A DNA stretch of 13,903 nucleotides. Source: Vicinamibacteria bacterium (GTDB taxonomy: Bacteria > Acidobacteriota > Vicinamibacteria > Vicinamibacterales > UBA2999). Below the pieces are notes generated by a model. It was not told where the DNA came from and searched no databases. It saw nothing but the letters and a program-made list of their open reading frames with translations. The DNA lies in NCBI GenBank assembly GCA_025938035.1, contig JAICQE010000126.1, positions 1 through 13,903 of the forward strand. Direction: 5' to 3'. The position numbers and the translations under genes were made by a program. Positions 5,002-11,886 of the stretch are shown one piece after another. Position 1 is the first letter of the stretch; each line of letters begins with the position of its first letter.

Positions 5002-5679
5002 TCAGTGCACCAGGCTCATGTGCGACTGCCCCTCGGCGGTGTGTGCGCGGGCATCGGGCAGCGCAGCCAGAACGGTGACCCCGCCGACCACCTTCTCGCC
5101 GACCCTGGTCTGCAGCGCCGCCTCGCGTGGCAGAAAGACATCCATCCTCGAGCCGAACTTCATGACGCCGAAGCGGTCGCCTGCCTTGACGACGTCCCCT
5201 TCCTTGATGCGGCAGACGATGCGCCGCGCGAGGATGCCGACGATCTGCCGCACCACAACCATCTGGCCGCCATGGTCAATCGTTACTTCGGTGTACTCGT
5301 TCAACTCGCCGGCATCGGATCTGTACGCCGGCAGGAAGCGTCCCGGATGGTACTTCACCGCGACGACCCGGCCGCCGACCGGCAGGCGGTTCACGTGCAC
5401 GTCCATCGGCGACAGAAAGATGCTGATCTGCTGCCACTGGCCGGATGAGAAGGTCGGCGACGTGGATGGCCCGGCGACCATGACCCGTCCGTCCGCGGGC
5501 GAAAGCACAGCCGTGTCTGGCGCGACGACCCTGCGATCCGGATCCCGGAAAAAGAACAGGAAAAACGTCGTCACGATCAGGAGCGTGATGCCGATGAGCG
5601 GCTTGAACAGCCAGAGGGCGACGATGGCGAGAACGAGGCCGCCGAGGATGAAAGGCCAGCCGGCCGGGTCGATGCGCAT
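5002..5679 (-). CDS. psd: Phosphatidylserine decarboxylase, short type (proenzyme)
   Basis: Decarboxylates phosphatidylserine to phosphatidylethanolamine at the membrane. The 225-aa protein has two closely spaced N-terminal hydrophobic segments (about 9-27 and 29-44), then RDPDRRVVAPDTAVLSPADG, typical of the family. ISIFLSPMDVHVNR (85-98) and HPGRFLPAY are core motifs. KFGSRMDVFLP near the C-terminus holds the self-cleavage site: cleavage before Ser177 would leave a pyruvoyl cofactor on the small alpha chain. Length and the FGS site match the short (PSD-A) class rather than the longer E. coli-type enzyme. The frame is open upstream to 5811, but that extension reads through the palindromic element at 5724-5805 and is not protein-like; ATG 5679, directly before RIDPAGWPF, is the natural start. 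The next gene, pssA, follows after one base. Confidence 0.93.
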   Translation of the reverse strand: MRIDPAGWPFILGGLVLAIVALWLFKPLIGITLLIVTTFFLFFFRDPDRRVVAPDTAVLSPADGRVMVAGPSTSPTFSSGQWQQISIFLSPMDVHVNRLPVGGRVVAVKYHPGRFLPAYRSDAGELNEYTEVTIDHGGQMVVVRQIVGILARRIVCRIKEGDVVKAGDRFGVMKFGSRMDVFLPREAALQTRVGEKVVGGVTVLAALPDARAHTAEGQSHMSLVH

Positions 5680-5723
5680 ACAAAAGAGAGTCCGAGTGTA
5701 CCCTCTTCGCCCCGGCACGAGAG

Positions 5724-5805
5724 CCGTGGGGCGCGCCGCGCCGAAGCCTTCCGGCGAAGGCGGGTCAGGCGCGCCAAGGCGGACGTAACAACGTCCGCCC
5801 CACGG
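5724..5805. repeat. REP/MITE-like palindromic element upstream of psd
   Basis: An 82-base element in the 152-base gap between the DUF465 gene and psd. Its ends are perfect 10-base inverted repeats, CCGTGGGGCG (5724-5733) and CGCCCCACGG (5796-5805). Inside are an inner stem GCCTTC/GAAGGC (5746-5751, 5756-5761; loop CGGC), the pair GGCGCGCC (5730-5737 and 5768-5775), and a perfect 9-base hairpin GGCGGACGT-AACA-ACGTCCGCC (5778-5799). Bases 5726-5777 are nearly the same as a segment inside tsaB (7051-7099, opposite orientation). It encodes nothing convincing. It may affect read-through from the DUF465 gene into psd, but there is no U-tract after the stems, so it is not a classical terminator. Confidence 0.7.
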
Positions 5806-5831
5806 CGCCACCTCAACCGGAAAAAATTCGG

Positions 5832-6189: not shown

Positions 6190-6696
6190 TTAGCCGGGTT
6201 CGTCGCGCCACAGGATCAGCGCGTCTTCCACCGGATTTGTGTAGTAGTTGCGCCGCGTCGCGGCGACGTAGAACCCCAGCCGTTCGTACAGGCGCCGTGC
6301 GGCCTCGTTCGAGGCGCGGACTTCGAGCGTGGCCCGCCGCGCGCCAAGCTGCCTGGCCTCGGCCAGGACGTGGCGCAGCAGCGTCGAGCCCATGCCGGCG
6401 CCGCGAAATTGCGGGCGGACCGCGACGTTGTTGATGTGGATTTCGTCGAGCACCAGCCAGAACGCGCAGAAGCCCGCCACCGGGCAGTCACGCGTCCGGG
6501 CGACGAAGATGTGGCAGACCGACCGGTTCTGCAGTTCCCACGTGTACATCTCGCGCGTCCACGGATTGGTGAACGACTCGGACTCGACCTCGAGTACCCC
6601 GTCGAGATCCGCGTCTCCCTCCAGACGGTCGATCCAATAGCGCGGCGAAGGGCCTGAATCGCGGTCACGAACGCCGTCAGCGGACAGGTCGGGCAT
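6190..6696 (-). CDS. rimI: Ribosomal protein S18-alanine N-acetyltransferase-like GNAT
   Basis: A 168-aa GNAT acetyltransferase, expected to move acetyl from acetyl-CoA to the N-terminal alanine of ribosomal protein S18. The acetyl-CoA loop is RPQFRGAGMGSTLL (94-107; Arg98-x-x-Gly101-x-Gly103), after the strand EIHINNVAV. The C-terminal SNEAARRLYERLGFYVAATR (129-148) and the following RNYYTNPVEDALIL are characteristic of RimI, with Tyr137 at the place of the conserved GNAT tyrosine. ATG 6696 lies inside the end of tsaB (20-base overlap), the usual tsaB-rimI arrangement, so translation is probably coupled. The frame extends upstream to 6852, but that part is antiparallel-frame sequence of tsaB and not protein-like. 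The first 20 or so residues are a poorly conserved charged leader. Substrate specificity is inferred from family and context. Confidence 0.9.
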   Translation of the reverse strand: MPDLSADGVRDRDSGPSPRYWIDRLEGDADLDGVLEVESESFTNPWTREMYTWELQNRSVCHIFVARTRDCPVAGFCAFWLVLDEIHINNVAVRPQFRGAGMGSTLLRHVLAEARQLGARRATLEVRASNEAARRLYERLGFYVAATRRNYYTNPVEDALILWRDEPG

Positions 6697-7453
6697 CGCG
6701 GGCACGCTCGGCGTCCGGCCGGCGGATATAGAGGGGACGAATGTCATCGGGTGGCGGACAATGGCCCGCTCGCGCCTGTTCGGTGGCGAGCTGCGCAATC
6801 GTGCCGGCCAGCGGCGGTGCGGGCGGTTCGGCGAACAGCGCGCGGTCGCCACACGCGCGCAGGATCACATCGCCGTAAATCGGCACTGCATCGCCGACAA
6901 ACAGCGTTGGCGCCGCTATCCGTGCGAGCACGGCATCGGGCTTCTCGACGCTTGGCGGATCCACCTCGACATCGCCTTCGTAGCGTGCCGCGAACACTTC
7001 CCCGCGCCACGCGTCCACCCACGTCGCCACTGCTGGCGCGCGTTCAGCAGTTGGCGAGCCTGACCCGCCTTCGCTCAGCTTCGGCGCGGCTCGCCCCACG
7101 ATCACCGTGCCTTCGCTGGGCTTCGGCGAGGCTCGCCCCACGATGACCGCGCGCGCCAGCGCGTCGAATCCGGAGATCCCGATGAGCGGCTTCCCGGCCG
7201 CAAACGCGAGCCCCTGCATCGTCGCGATGCCGATGCGCAGCCCGGTGAACGAACCCGGGCCCGTCGCCACCGCGTACAGCTCGATCTCAGGAAGGCCGAG
7301 CCGCGCGTCGGCAAGGAGCGTCATCAGATCGCCGGGGAGACGCGTGTCGTGCGGACGATCGGGATCGCCGCGCAACTCGCGAATCACCACCCCGTCGCGC
7401 GCCACCGCGCAGCTTCCGCCGGGCGTCGTGGTGTCGAGGCTCAGGCAAACCAC
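6677..7453 (-). CDS. tsaB: tRNA threonylcarbamoyladenosine biosynthesis protein TsaB, with repeat-derived insert
   Basis: TsaB is the scaffold partner of TsaD (Kae1/Qri7) in making t6A37 on ANN-decoding tRNAs; it has the ASKHA fold but no kinase-like catalysis. The N-terminal LSLDTTTPGG (4-13) matches the usual ALDTS start, and the hallmark GPGSFTGLRIG is at 65-75. WVDAWRGEVFAARY follows, and the C-terminus has PLYIRRPDAE. Length is 258 aa against about 231 in E. coli; the extra residues are mostly 103-135, between the helix ending DALARA and the strand ATWVDA. There two copies of VIVGRA(A/S)PK are encoded by a palindromic repeat also found upstream of psd. I chose GTG 7453 because everything upstream translates from a GAAC-type heptamer array; no Shine-Dalgarno sequence is seen. 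A TATTAT box ends six bases before the start, so the mRNA may be leaderless. Confidence 0.92.
   Translation of the reverse strand: MVCLSLDTTTPGGSCAVARDGVVIRELRGDPDRPHDTRLPGDLMTLLADARLGLPEIELYAVATGPGSFTGLRIGIATMQGLAFAAGKPLIGISGFDALARAVIVGRASPKPSEGTVIVGRAAPKLSEGGSGSPTAERAPAVATWVDAWRGEVFAARYEGDVEVDPPSVEKPDAVLARIAAPTLFVGDAVPIYGDVILRACGDRALFAEPPAPPLAGTIAQLATEQARAGHCPPPDDIRPLYIRRPDAERARDARPVR
7051..7147 (-). repeat. Tandem palindromic element copies inside tsaB
   Basis: Two related copies in tandem within the tsaB reading frame. Copy A (7051-7105) is complete: an arm at 7078-7099, a four-base loop, then an arm at 7051-7073. The arms match the intergenic element (5726-5747 and 5755-5777) at 21 of 22 and 22 of 23 positions. 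Copy B (7109-7147) has the first arm, one base different from A, and only seven bases of the second. GGCGAGCC (7053-7060) pairs with GGCTCGCC (7088-7095). The encoded peptides are VIVGRASPKPSEGT and VIVGRAAPKLSEGGSGSP, which break no conserved TsaB motif. Confidence 0.75.
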
Positions 7454-7470
7454 TGAGCGATAATACAGGC

Positions 7471-7556
7471 GTTCACACTTCCAGGTTCTCGCTTCCGGGT
7501 TCGTGTTCTGAGTTCGGTGCGGAGTTCGAGGTTCGGGCGTTCGAGGTTCGAAGCTC
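7471..7556. repeat. Degenerate heptamer array, GTTC orientation (left arm before mutS)
   Basis: About twelve successive, mostly seven-base units of type GTTCNNN or CTTCNNN, for example GTTCACA, CTTCCAG, GTTCTCG, CTTCCGG and GTTCGTG, then GTTCGAG and GTTCGAA. It fills the upstream region of tsaB. It faces an opposite (GAAC) array at 7601-7656 across a 44-base unique spacer. Confidence 0.65.
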
Positions 7557-7600
7557 AACGCATGCACCGCGTATGGACCACGACATCGAAGGCGGCACCT

Positions 7601-7656
7601 GAACGGAACGTGAACACGAACACGAACGGAGAACAGAGCACTGGGAAGCGTGAACT
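7601..7656. repeat. Degenerate heptamer array, GAAC orientation (right arm, covers mutS start)
   Basis: Units of six to seven bases, including GAACGGA, GAACAC (twice), GAACGGA, GAACAGA, GAAGCGT and GAACTCC. The unit type is the reverse complement of the array at 7471-7556. The last units contain the mutS ribosome binding region (GGGAAGC) and its GTG start at 7650. Confidence 0.6.
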
Positions 7657-10286
7657 CCAGCGTCACCCCCGCCATGCGTCAGTATCTCGACGCGAAGCAT
7701 CAGTACCGCGATGCGATCGTGTTCTTCCGCATGGGCGACTTCTACGAGATGTTCTACGAGGACGCCCTCGTCGCCGCGCGGGCGCTCGAGCTCACGCTCA
7801 CCTCCCGGTCGAAGGACGCGGGCGGCAACGGCATTCCGATGTGCGGCGTGCCGCACCATGCGGCTGATGGGTACGTCGCGCGTCTGGTCAAGAAGGGATT
7901 TCGTGTCGCGATCTGCGAGCAGACGGAGGATCCGAAGAAGGCCAAAGGCCTCGTCAAGCGTGAGGTGGTCCGCGTGGTGTCGCCCGGGACGCTGACCGAC
8001 GCCGCGTACCTCGAAGCGCGTGAGCCCGCCTATCTGATGTCGATTGCCACCGCCGGGGAGCTCTATGGTGTGGGTCTCATCGACCTGTCGACCGGCGAAT
8101 TCACGACCGCCGAATATCGAAACGGCGACGGGCTGCAGGCGCTGGCCGACGAAATCGCGGTGCTCCGGCCGCGTGAAGTCGTCGTGCCCTCGCGGGAGAT
8201 CGTCGAGCGGCTGCCGGAGATCGCACGGCTGCAGATGCCGGTGACGACCGCCGACGCGTGGACCTTCGAGCCGGAGGCGGCCCGGCGCGCGCTGCTCGAT
8301 CAGCTTCGTGTGCACGGCCTCGACGGCTTCGGGCTCGAGGGGCGGACCGCCGCCATTCAGGCCGCCGGCGGGCTGACGACGTACCTGCGCGATACGCAGA
8401 AGGCGGATCTCGCGCACGTTCGCGCGATTGCCTATAAGACCGCCAGCGACTGTCTGGTGATCGATCCGATTACGCTGAAGCACCTCGAGGTCGTCGCCGG
8501 GAGCGAGGGCGGCGCGAAAGGATCGCTGCTCGACGAGATCGATCGCACCGTGACGTCGATGGGCGCACGGCTCCTCCGCGCGTGGCTGCTGCGGCCGCTG
8601 GCGTCGCTCGAGCGCATTCGCGACCGGCTCGACGCCGTCGAGGAGCTCGCCTTCCGAACCACCGAACGCGGCAAGTACCGCGAGACGCTCAAGTCGGTCC
8701 ATGACCTGGAGCGGCTGGTCGCGCGCGCGGCGCTCGGGACGGCCGGACCGCGTGATCTGGTCGCCCTTCGACAGTCGCTCGCCGCCATTCCCCGGCTGAA
8801 GCTGCTGCTCGAGCCGCTGCAGGCGCCGCTGGTGCGATCGCTCACCGCCTCGCTCGACGAGCTGGCCGATCTGCGGGACGACATCGAGCGCACGCTGATC
8901 GACGAACCGCCAGCGTTCACTCGCGACGGCGGGTTTACGCGCGACGGCGTCGACGCGGGCCTCGACGAGCTGCGCGCGATCAGCCGATCGGGGCGTCAGG
9001 TGATCGCCGACATGGAGGAGCGCGAGCGGGAGCGGACCGGAATCGGCTCCCTCAAGGTCCGGTTCAACCGCGTCTTCGGCTATTACATCGAGATTTCCAA
9101 GTCGAACCTCCACGCCGTGCCGGCGGACTACCACCGCAAGCAGACGATCGCCGGCGGCGAGCGCTTCACGACGCCGGCGCTGAAGGAATACGAGGAGAAG
9201 GTCCTGGGCGCGGACGAGCGGATCCTCGCCCGCGAGCTCGAGCTGTTCGAGGCCCTGCGGCTTCGCGTTGCAGCGGAGTCGCCGCGGATCCAGGAATCGG
9301 CGCGGGCGCTTTCGGCCCTCGACGTGTTGGCGGCACTGGCGGAAACGGCCGCGGTGGCGAACTACACCAAGCCGCACGTGCATGACGGCGAGGACTATCT
9401 CGTCACCGACGGCCGTCATCCCGTGGTCGAACGCTATGCCGCCGGCGCGTTCGTGCCCAACGACATCGATCTGAACGGCACTACCCGCCAGCTGGTGATC
9501 CTGACCGGCCCCAACATGGGCGGGAAATCGACGTATCTCCGCCAGGCGGCGCTCATTCCGCTGCTGGCCCAGATCGGCTCGTTCGTCCCGGCGAAGGACG
9601 CCAAGGTGCCGATCGTCGATCGCATCTTTGCCCGCGTCGGCGCCTCGGACAACATCGCCCGCGGCCAATCCACCTTCATGGTGGAAATGCAGGAGACAGC
9701 CAACATCCTGCACACCGCAACATCGCGAAGCCTCGTCGTGCTGGACGAGATCGGCCGCGGTACATCCACGTTCGACGGGTTGAGCATCGCCTGGGCAGTC
9801 GCCGAATACCTTGCGTCCAATCCGAAGGCGCGTCCGAAGACGCTCTTTGCGACCCACTACCACGAGCTGACGGACCTTGCCGACGCGCGTCCAGGGGTGG
9901 TGAACGCGCATGTCGCCGCCCGCGAGTGGAAGGACGACATCGTCTTCCTGAGGAAGATTGTCAGCGGCCGATCGGACCGCAGCTACGGCATCCAGGTGGC
10001 ACGGCTGGCGGGACTGCCGGCCAGCGTGGTGTTGCGCGCGAAGGAGATTCTGCGCGGGCTCGAGAGCGACGAGCTGTCGCGCGGCGGACGCCCCACGCTC
10101 TCCGGCACGGCCGGCGACGCGCAGACCGACCAGCTGGGCCTGTTCGCCCGCCCTGCCGAGAGCGGGCCGTATGCTGAGCATGACGCTCTCGCCGAGCGCC
10201 TGAAGGCCATCGACGTCGATGGGATCACACCGCGGCAGGCGCTGGAGCTGCTGGCGGAGTTGAAGAAGGTGGCTGAGGACCGGTAG
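7650..10286 (+). CDS. mutS: DNA mismatch repair protein MutS
   Basis: Recognises mismatches and small loops and starts repair with MutL. 878 aa, close to E. coli MutS (853). The mismatch-reading motif FFRMGDFYEMF is at 25-35, with Phe31 and Glu33 as the F-x-E pair. Connector, lever and clamp regions follow; FNRVFGYYIEISKSN marks the clamp/lever part. The ATPase has Walker A TGPNMGGKSTYLRQ (Lys626), Walker B LVVLDEIGRGTSTFDG (Asp699, Glu700) and the trailing ATHYHELTDL. GTG 7650 has GGGAAGC just upstream; both lie in a degenerate heptamer array. ATG 7674 would be an internal alternative without a Shine-Dalgarno sequence. The solute-binding protein gene begins one base after the stop, so the two are probably co-transcribed although unrelated in function. 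No mutL is in the window. All key residues are present. Confidence 0.97.
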   Translation: MNSSVTPAMRQYLDAKHQYRDAIVFFRMGDFYEMFYEDALVAARALELTLTSRSKDAGGNGIPMCGVPHHAADGYVARLVKKGFRVAICEQTEDPKKAKGLVKREVVRVVSPGTLTDAAYLEAREPAYLMSIATAGELYGVGLIDLSTGEFTTAEYRNGDGLQALADEIAVLRPREVVVPSREIVERLPEIARLQMPVTTADAWTFEPEAARRALLDQLRVHGLDGFGLEGRTAAIQAAGGLTTYLRDTQKADLAHVRAIAYKTASDCLVIDPITLKHLEVVAGSEGGAKGSLLDEIDRTVTSMGARLLRAWLLRPLASLERIRDRLDAVEELAFRTTERGKYRETLKSVHDLERLVARAALGTAGPRDLVALRQSLAAIPRLKLLLEPLQAPLVRSLTASLDELADLRDDIERTLIDEPPAFTRDGGFTRDGVDAGLDELRAISRSGRQVIADMEERERERTGIGSLKVRFNRVFGYYIEISKSNLHAVPADYHRKQTIAGGERFTTPALKEYEEKVLGADERILARELELFEALRLRVAAESPRIQESARALSALDVLAALAETAAVANYTKPHVHDGEDYLVTDGRHPVVERYAAGAFVPNDIDLNGTTRQLVILTGPNMGGKSTYLRQAALIPLLAQIGSFVPAKDAKVPIVDRIFARVGASDNIARGQSTFMVEMQETANILHTATSRSLVVLDEIGRGTSTFDGLSIAWAVAEYLASNPKARPKTLFATHYHELTDLADARPGVVNAHVAAREWKDDIVFLRKIVSGRSDRSYGIQVARLAGLPASVVLRAKEILRGLESDELSRGGRPTLSGTAGDAQTDQLGLFARPAESGPYAEHDALAERLKAIDVDGITPRQALELLAELKKVAEDR

Positions 10287-10287
10287 G

Positions 10288-11886
10288 TTGGAAATTCAGA
10301 ATTCTGAATTCAGAATGCAGATACGGCGTCGCAGACCAGGACACGGGGTCGTGTGGGCACTGCCTGCATTCTGCATTCTGAATTCTGCATTACTCGCCGG
10401 TTGCCTGCGTCCACAGCCGCCAGCCGATCCCAACATCATCACCATCGCCGCCCGCGTTGGGCCAAACAACCTGCACCCGCTGAAGGCCAACGACGAGGGA
10501 ACTGCCCGCGTCGGTCAGTTGATGTACGAGTCGCTGATGGATACGGGCGACGATCTCCGCGCGCATCCTCGCCTGGCCGAACGCCTGGAGCAGCCGGATC
10601 CGCTGACCTACGTCGTCCATCTCCGCCGCGGCGTGAAGTTTCACGACGGCCACGAGCTCACCGCCCGCGACGTCGTCTACACCTACAGCCTGTTTCTGGA
10701 CCCGGCGTTCGTGACACCGTTCAAGGGAGCGTTCACCCCGATGACCGCGGTGCGTGCGCTGGACGACTATACCGTGGCGTTCACGTTGAAGGCGCCGTTC
10801 CCGTCGTTCCCTGTGACCAACATGGTTCCGATACCGATCGTGCCCGCGGGCGTGGACGAGGCGACGCTGGCGCGCTCGCCAAACGGCACCGGGCCGTACC
10901 GGTTCGTCCGCTATGCCACGGACGACAAGGTAGAAGTGGCCGCGTTTGCCGACTACTGGAACGGGCCGCCGCGGAATTCAGGGGTCGTGTTCAAAGTCAT
11001 TCCCGACGACACGATGCGCGGGCTCGAGCTGCGCAAGGGCACCGCGGACCTGATCGTCAACGACGTGCCGCCGGACATCGTCCACCAGATGGAAAAAGGC
11101 GGCGACTTCTCTATCGTCCGCTCGCCCGGGCTCGATTTCTCGTATCTTGGATTCAACATGCGCGACCCCGTGGTGTCGGACAAACGCGTCCGGCACGCGA
11201 TCGGGTACGCGACGAACCGCGATGCGATTGTGAAATATCTGAGGCGCGGTCTCGCGATTCCCGCAACCAGCCTGCTGCCGCCGCGCGCGTGGGCCTACGA
11301 GCCGGACATCTTCATGTTCACTTACGACCCGGGGAAGGCGAAGCGGCTGCTGGACGAGGCGGGCTATCGCGATCCGGATGGCGACGGTCCGCTGCCGCGG
11401 CTGCGCCTCTCGTTGAAGATCTCGACCAACGAGGAGGTCCGGCTGCAGTCCACGGCTATCCAACAGGATCTCCGCCGTGTGGGCATCGACCTCGACGTTC
11501 GGTTGTACGAGTTTGCGACCGTCTTCGCCGACATCCTGAAAGGCAACTTCCAGATCATGTCGCTGCAGTGGGTTGGCGGCGCGGTGATCGACCCGGACAT
11601 CCTGCGGCGCGTGTTTCACTCGACGCAGACGCCGCCGAGCGGATTCAACCGAGGTCACTACCAGAATCCCGAAGTCGATCGGCTGCTCGATCTGGCGAGT
11701 ACCGCGCTGGCGGAGCCCGAGCGGAAGAAGTACTACGGCGCGGCGCAGCGTCTAATCGCCGAGGACGCCGTCTATATTCCGATCTGGAACCGGGTGAACG
11801 TGGCCGTCGCGCAGAAAGAGATCAGCGGCGTCCGCCTGATGCCGAGCATCGATTTCTCGATGCTCAAGGACGTTCGCCGCAACTAG
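10288..11886 (+). CDS. Lipoprotein solute-binding protein of the peptide/nickel ABC family (SBP family 5)
   Basis: Extracytoplasmic substrate-binding lipoprotein, probably for oligopeptides or related solutes. From TTG 10288 it has 532 aa. A basic run (RRRR) is followed by the hydrophobic stretch VVWALPAFCILNSALL and lipobox LAGC with Cys39, the likely lipidated residue. Family 5 features are the opening LHPLKANDEGTARVGQLMYE, the signature HLRRGVKFHDGHELTARDVV, NGTGPYRFVRY and the C-terminal EDAVYIPIWN. TTG 10288 has GAGG nine bases upstream and follows the mutS stop by one base. ATG 10315 would give a more usual 30-residue signal peptide but has no Shine-Dalgarno sequence. The signal peptide is partly encoded by heptamer repeats. 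No permease or ATPase genes adjoin it, so substrate and transporter partner are unknown. A terminator follows at 11908-11931. Confidence 0.9.
   Translation: MEIQNSEFRMQIRRRRPGHGVVWALPAFCILNSALLAGCLRPQPPADPNIITIAARVGPNNLHPLKANDEGTARVGQLMYESLMDTGDDLRAHPRLAERLEQPDPLTYVVHLRRGVKFHDGHELTARDVVYTYSLFLDPAFVTPFKGAFTPMTAVRALDDYTVAFTLKAPFPSFPVTNMVPIPIVPAGVDEATLARSPNGTGPYRFVRYATDDKVEVAAFADYWNGPPRNSGVVFKVIPDDTMRGLELRKGTADLIVNDVPPDIVHQMEKGGDFSIVRSPGLDFSYLGFNMRDPVVSDKRVRHAIGYATNRDAIVKYLRRGLAIPATSLLPPRAWAYEPDIFMFTYDPGKAKRLLDEAGYRDPDGDGPLPRLRLSLKISTNEEVRLQSTAIQQDLRRVGIDLDVRLYEFATVFADILKGNFQIMSLQWVGGAVIDPDILRRVFHSTQTPPSGFNRGHYQNPEVDRLLDLASTALAEPERKKYYGAAQRLIAEDAVYIPIWNRVNVAVAQKEISGVRLMPSIDFSMLKDVRRN
10293..10391. 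repeat. Inverted pair of heptamer arrays at the start of the solute-binding protein gene
   Basis: Left arm 10293-10320: AATTCAG, AATTCTG, AATTCAG, AATGCAG. Right arm 10364-10391: CTGCATT, CTGCATT, CTGAATT, CTGCATT. The right units are reverse complements of left units. The 43-base spacer carries a central hairpin ACACG-GGGT-CGTGT (10341-10354). All units are exactly seven bases. The right arm encodes AFCILNSAL of the lipoprotein signal peptide. Confidence 0.85.

Follow-up and report, generated by a model that had tools for sequence, protein, structure and literature searches.

A palindromic repeat encodes extra residues at one loop of TsaB: a probable REP-like insertion in Vicinamibacteria

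The window, that is, the whole analysed stretch of 13,903 nucleotides from a Vicinamibacteria bacterium (contig JAICQE010000126.1), carries tsaB, an essential gene for tRNA modification (t6A). The coordinates of the gene and of the repeat copies described below are collected in Table 1. The product was identified as TsaB both by the profile (TIGR03725, 139 bits, cut-off 69) and by its fold, and its GPGSFTGLR motif is undamaged. The nearest TsaB among the related genomes searched, that of genome G001, is 57% identical. Between the helix FDALARA and the strand VATWVDAWRG the protein has a loop of 43 residues, in which the segment VIVGRASP starts at residue 103 (numbered from the GTG start). The same loop is 9-10 residues long in most insert-free relatives, which leaves approximately 33 extra residues in the window TsaB, and these are encoded by a palindromic repeat at 7051-7150. 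The initial annotation, which had described about 33 additional residues made by a tandem palindromic repeat otherwise found between genes and placed them in a loop that spares GPGSFTGLR, was correct on these points.

Table 1. Positions of tsaB and of the repeat copies in the window
Feature	Position	Strand	Remarks
tsaB coding sequence, host gene of the insert	6680-7453	minus	GTG start at 7453; stop 6677-6679
Tandem unit 1 (AVIVGRASPKPSEG)	7109-7150	minus	without right palindrome arm; 88% identity to unit 2; translation
Tandem unit 2 (TVIVGRAAPKLSEG)	7067-7108	minus	left stem arm (GGCGAGCC) at 7088-7095
Right end of palindrome	7051-7066	minus	GGGTCA, right stem arm (GGCTCGCC) at 7053-7060, AA; aligned with intergenic copy
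Full element copy between genes	5723-5806	plus	Smith-Waterman alignment and DNA fold

This element and its relatives are designated F1 (peptide VGRASPKPSEGGSGSP); the loop core of the element, here in its long form, is CGCCGAAGCnnAGCGAAGGCGGG. The insert contains two 42-bp tandem units, the duplicated unit takes in the host codons TV/AV, and the second hairpin of the element is missing. Because the unit includes these host codons and the right arm is present in unit 2 only, one insertion followed by tandem duplication appears to be the simplest history. Of the two inserted copies proposed in the initial annotation, the two tandem units therefore stand, but two separate insertions do not, as one insertion plus a duplication reads better.

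When the insert was aligned locally to the rest of the window, a score of 69 was obtained at 5725-5777 (53 bp), against a maximum of 39 in 100 dinucleotide shuffles, so a further copy of the repeat does exist, between genes and in the opposite orientation. As single-stranded DNA this copy folds into a two-hairpin Y consisting of a closing stem (GCCGTGGG/CCCACGGC), hairpin 1 with the core GCCGAAG..GCGAAGGC, and hairpin 2 (GGCGGACGTAACAACGTCCGCC); the fold had a z-score of -5.2, and 0 of 200 shuffles were as good, whereas the tsaB insert behaved far more mildly (z = -2.0; 5 of 200 shuffles as good). The intergenic copy is located 43 bp upstream of the probable start of psd (ATG at 5679), the position encoding the residue at which the psd profile match starts. 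If psd started at the GTG at 5811 instead, this element would lie inside a reading frame too. An Rfam scan of the window found no family at the gathering score, and a tRNA search of the window found no tRNA.

In the AlphaFold model the window TsaB has a normal fold apart from the insert-bearing loop, which connects the two halves of the fold and is of low confidence (pLDDT 54-55 at residues 111-130, mean 88). The insert is probably floppy. The low confidence of the loop suggests that it may be exposed.

Four related genomes each hold between 16 and 24 occurrences of the F1 hairpin stem (GGGGCGAGCC...GGCTCGCC). With the search pattern GGGGCGAGCCN{3,33}GGCTCGCC, counted on both strands with some palindromes counted twice, 24 matches were found in G112, 23 in G106, 19 in G100 and 16 in G002, and the backward control had none in these four; lower numbers were obtained for G098 (6), G006 (5) and G001 (4). 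Altogether the pattern was present in 26 of 193 genomes of the class, mostly with one or two matches, and since the control matched once in 19 of the 193, single matches say little and only the rich genomes count. The dispersed copies expected of a REP element were found in G002, G100, G106 and G112, and the window shows the repeat at two places only.

The element is approximately 53 bp long in its short form and 84 bp in the intergenic copy of the window. A full short copy (e.g. at locus L230) reads GTGGGGCGAGCC-TTGTCA-GGCTCGCC-TC-GCGGACCTGACAAGGTCCGC-GCCAC and follows the same plan as the intergenic copy. In the TsaB frame the short form (GTG GGG CGA GCC TTG TCA GGC TCG CC) translates as VGRALSGSP, which is the exact loop peptide of the TsaB homologs P0005, P0007 and P0024 and is also encoded by an in-frame copy in G106 (L254). 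The long form is present in G002 too, and no match to its pattern was seen in the first 19 loci examined; the long core of the window is rare, being found in 2 of 193 genomes of the class with up to two mismatches allowed. A looser 19-nt core pattern was dropped as unspecific (147 of 193 genomes matched, with similar results for the controls in most). In the viral collection IMG/VR the long core was found on one contig only (L050, 4907-4934, GCCGAAGCGAAGCGAAGGCGGGTCAGGC), the genes of which appear by eye to belong to another kind of organism, and a TsaB search of IMG/VR found no relative.

A different palindrome, F2 (AGGAACGCCGTGAAGGCGTTCCG), had 57 matches in G001 (both strands counted) and none with the control. 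Its tandems in G001 translate as RNAVKAFRE, and among the five pairs read there the spacing was 33 bp in four (11 residues, as in TsaB) and 36 in one; one tandem pair in G100 had a spacing of 30.

Further protein-coding inserts of such repeats were seen in related genomes. In-frame copies with Pfam support were found in G106 and G112 in genes for PheT, MutS2, an amidase, a Wzt-type ABC ATPase and a TPR protein, and in G001 in genes for siroheme synthase, homoserine dehydrogenase (two F2 units), SMC, a UbiD-family decarboxylase, a VWA protein and a hydrolase; single G001 cases may be due to chance, because some differ from the core by 2-3 bases, a level at which one control matched. Copies of F1 in frame within genes numbered 5 of 36 in G106 and G112 by a GC3 frame criterion applied without a random-position control, the other 31 being intergenic or undecided; the 36 represent 18 distinct places per genome, from 20 listed of the 23 (G106) and 24 (G112) matches. 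As in TsaB, the repeat in homoserine dehydrogenase, the Wzt-type ATPase, PheT and MutS2 separates two domains or immediately precedes one; in siroheme synthase (F1-like and F2), SMC, UbiD and the amidase it falls within the Pfam domain match. In G100 palindromes form terminal extensions, e.g. of an acyltransferase and a PALP enzyme. The repeats thus occur both in frame within genes and between genes, a combination also described for the Rickettsia palindromic elements (RPEs). The siroheme synthase gene of G001 (L196, 899-2533, minus strand) was seen to have three separate in-frame palindrome-like stretches, one F1-like, one F2 and a third recognized by eye.

All counts given below for TsaB homologs, and the tree, refer to 120 homologs listed of 6553; as the query carried the F1 insert and 120 of 6553 were listed, the share of F1 is inflated. 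At least four extra residues follow one and the same column of the loop in 57 of the 120, with three more cases within a few columns, and insertions elsewhere are only nine, of 4-9 residues each, all round one other loop. The loops were sorted by our own peptide expressions, and by hand for P0046 (to F2), P0076 (to other) and P0108 (loop missing, to base), into base (57), F1 (26), F2 (22), F3 (10), F4 (1) and other (4). F1 loops are 16-43 residues long and contain VGRASPKPSEGGSGSP or shorter forms such as VGRALSGSP. F2 loops contain one to three tandem units of RNAVKAFRQTG, the F3 peptide is GPLRGTRP...GRVPRSGP, and that of F4 is PPEGGSH. Judged by sequence, the insert loops comprise at least three unrelated peptide families. 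We infer the palindromic nature of F2 in TsaB from the match of its peptide to the G001 DNA, and the peptides of F3 and F4 suggest that these, too, are probably palindromes. In P0104, P0105 and P0109 a different, GRPELVEGR-like peptide is lodged within F3, an apparent case of one insert nested in another. P0108 lacks the entire loop and the start of the next strand (SGFDAWRGEVYAA).

On a tree built from TsaB with the loop cut out, the loop labels required 17 changes (seven labels, outgroup included), against a mean of 62 after shuffling. The F1 clade has 36 rows, 26 with F1 and 10 without; in the F2 clade 3 of 25 rows are base, and F3 accounts for 7 of the 9 rows of one clade and for three rows elsewhere. 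With 60 of 123 inner branches open, gains and losses in the F1 clade are inseparable. The insert-bearing P0011 and P0024 group with the insert-free P0029-P0031, with end branches of 0.006-0.024. The reading frame is preserved in the 26 homolog clusters that have F1-type loops, one of which is that of the window. Clustered labels and close relatives without the insert mark it as lineage-specific. The loop was also surveyed at the level of the order in 90 genomes of 162, of which 45 loops could be delimited, 31 had no recognised end and 14 lacked a recognised start motif, among them the cut-off gene of G106. The 33 residues, which conservation as protein would have placed in distant homologs, were not seen in the 45 delimited loops (G100 has an insert of its own), and loop length varies across the order even in TsaB without such repeats.

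The tsaB gene of G100 likewise has a palindromic insert in this loop, where the F1 stem is translated in a different frame; the inserts of this gene are unsure, because the assembly here contains a stretch of N whose flank is repeated. The G106 contig that holds tsaB (C79) begins within the loop. Nearer the C-terminus of G100 TsaB (L022), before LFIGDGA, a second in-frame insert with tandem hairpins was noticed; two of these hairpins are followed by CCTAC (GTAG on the opposite strand), as in classical GTAG REPs.

Four short F1 copies in G100 flank a 163-aa gene (L208, 1913-2404, minus strand), with three copies to one side of it and the fourth to the other. The gene was identified as a REP-associated tyrosine transposase (RAYT) by NF047646 (114 bits, cut-off 80). 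Since its stem is common to the repeats that flank this RAYT, F1 is nearer to REP elements. The similarity to RPEs proposed in the initial annotation holds for the way in which the repeats work, in frame and between genes; nothing observed here points to kinship. Because no GTAG is present at the hairpin base, F1 was not filed as a classical GTAG REP: the copies of the window begin with GTGGGG and those of G100 with TGCGGGG (by eye), and GTGTAG is a few bases outside two of the four G100 copies. The Y1-type transposase profile PF01797 matched in 18 of the 24 genomes searched (four matches in G001, six in G100), and the F1 hairpin was absent at 9 of 10 RAYT-like loci (all four of G001 and five of the six of G100). 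Taking the flanked gene as the guide, which is one locus in one genome other than that of the window, F1 is likely to be mobilised by a RAYT. At two of these nine loci, L211 and L214, the RAYT-like gene is bordered on both sides by hairpins that match each other but differ in sequence from F1; these may represent additional REP families, each served by a transposase of its own.

The best-known examples of selfish, protein-encoding hairpin repeats are those of Rickettsia and isolated instances among REPs. In PMC3733652, REPs are described as mostly intergenic, some being in frame in housekeeping genes, dimers and groups as common, and RAYT genes as flanked by repeats. Intragenic GTAG and CGTC REPs are reported there from many bacteria, with genes for DNA repair and tRNA modification among those affected, and in two Xanthomonas species a REP is present at about the same site of recB. 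F1 resembles these in being short, palindromic, mostly intergenic, sometimes in frame and grouped, with a RAYT flanked by repeats, but it has no recognised GTAG or CGTC end, has the two-hairpin form and occurs in Acidobacteriota, and in TsaB several unrelated peptide families, apparently nested in places, share one loop. RPEs (Ogata et al. 2000 and 2002, as summarised in PMC10969869 and PMC3733652) are palindromes that occur in frame in protein genes, adding peptide segments, and between genes; the likeness to them is one of description, and they differ in being approximately 150 bp long and known from an obligate intracellular alphaproteobacterium. With MITEs F1 shares short length, non-autonomy and inverted-repeat ends, but the enzyme beside the F1 repeats in G100 is RAYT-like. 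In-frame REPs and RPEs are therefore known as a kind. In the open-access literature (subscription papers and preprints were mostly outside the scope) nothing was found on such inserts in this lineage, and the families of Acidobacteriota, the two-hairpin form and the pile-up of several families on one loop were not met there.

We consider it most probable (roughly 0.78) that a REP-like mobile palindrome inserted in frame into a tolerant loop between the domains of TsaB and was then tandemly duplicated. An element with two hairpins, its ends paired through a short inverted repeat, would have been copied into the loop, most likely by a RAYT acting on hairpins in single-stranded DNA. As the loop is unconserved and probably exposed and TsaB would go on working, the insertion could survive selection, and the insert is presumably translated and tolerated. 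Part of the copy would then have been duplicated as the 42-bp unit, probably by replication slippage. That the extra residues arose from slippage or expansion of host sequence at an intrinsic length hotspot, the REP likeness being secondary, agrees with the tandem units and with the variable loop length across the order, but it is very improbable and largely refuted by the dispersed copies: the insert matches both the intergenic copy, over 53 bp, and a family scattered through other genomes, and translating dispersed palindromes gives the F1 and F2 peptides. Recruitment of the insert for a function kept by selection, such as the tuning of TsaB-TsaD or TsaB-TsaE contacts, is only slightly less improbable; the insert is present in 26 of the 36 rows in the F1 clade and the loop joins two fold halves, but 10 rows lack it, F1 loops vary from 16 to 43 residues, the model confidence is low, and sister clades have unrelated sequences at the same place. 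Least credible of all is an assembly artefact by which repeats were collapsed into tsaB: the window is probably a metagenome contig, and the G106 contig start and the G100 run of N both fall in tsaB, but the frame is kept in all 26 clusters with F1-type loops.

More weight, though still well short of even odds, is given to a spread of F1 independent of RAYT, through another transposase as on MITEs or through recombination among the repeats themselves; the RAYT gene next to the G100 copies would then be there by coincidence. The missing GTAG, the short terminal inverted repeats, the nine RAYT-like loci without F1 and the lack of a PF01797 match in 6 of 24 genomes, including G098 with its six stem-pattern matches, fit such a spread, as do the CGTC repeats, for which PMC3733652 reports no transposase partner; the three-and-one arrangement of copies around the G100 gene and the PF01797 matches in the other 18 genomes argue for RAYT. 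Similarly doubtful is the stronger proposal that the loop is a true landing site, where unrelated REP-like families (F1, F2, probably F3 and F4, and the insert of G100) settled repeatedly, sometimes nestedly, at the same codon positions through target preference of the enzyme or DNA structure and not through tolerance alone; the presence of several families at a single site of one protein is compatible with tolerance and preference alike. If that proposal were true, essential enzymes of the lineage would steadily gain new linkers from coding palindromes.

In this little-studied lineage, natural TsaB variants that have or lack an insert at a single loop number in the dozens, so that tolerance, target choice and linker origin become directly testable in one essential enzyme. 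Annotators should also bear in mind that an unusual loop in a genome of this kind may represent mobile DNA. Two other repeats were noticed in the window. The spacer between tsaB and mutS (7468-7658) contains imperfect GTTCGAGGTTCG-like repeats and a 41-nt inverted repeat (76% complementary). At 10293-10391, at the start of a gene for a lipoprotein-like substrate-binding protein, there is an AT-rich inverted repeat with arms of 28 nt (89% complementary), part of which seems to encode the signal peptide (FCILNSALLAGC) and which is possibly another coding palindrome.
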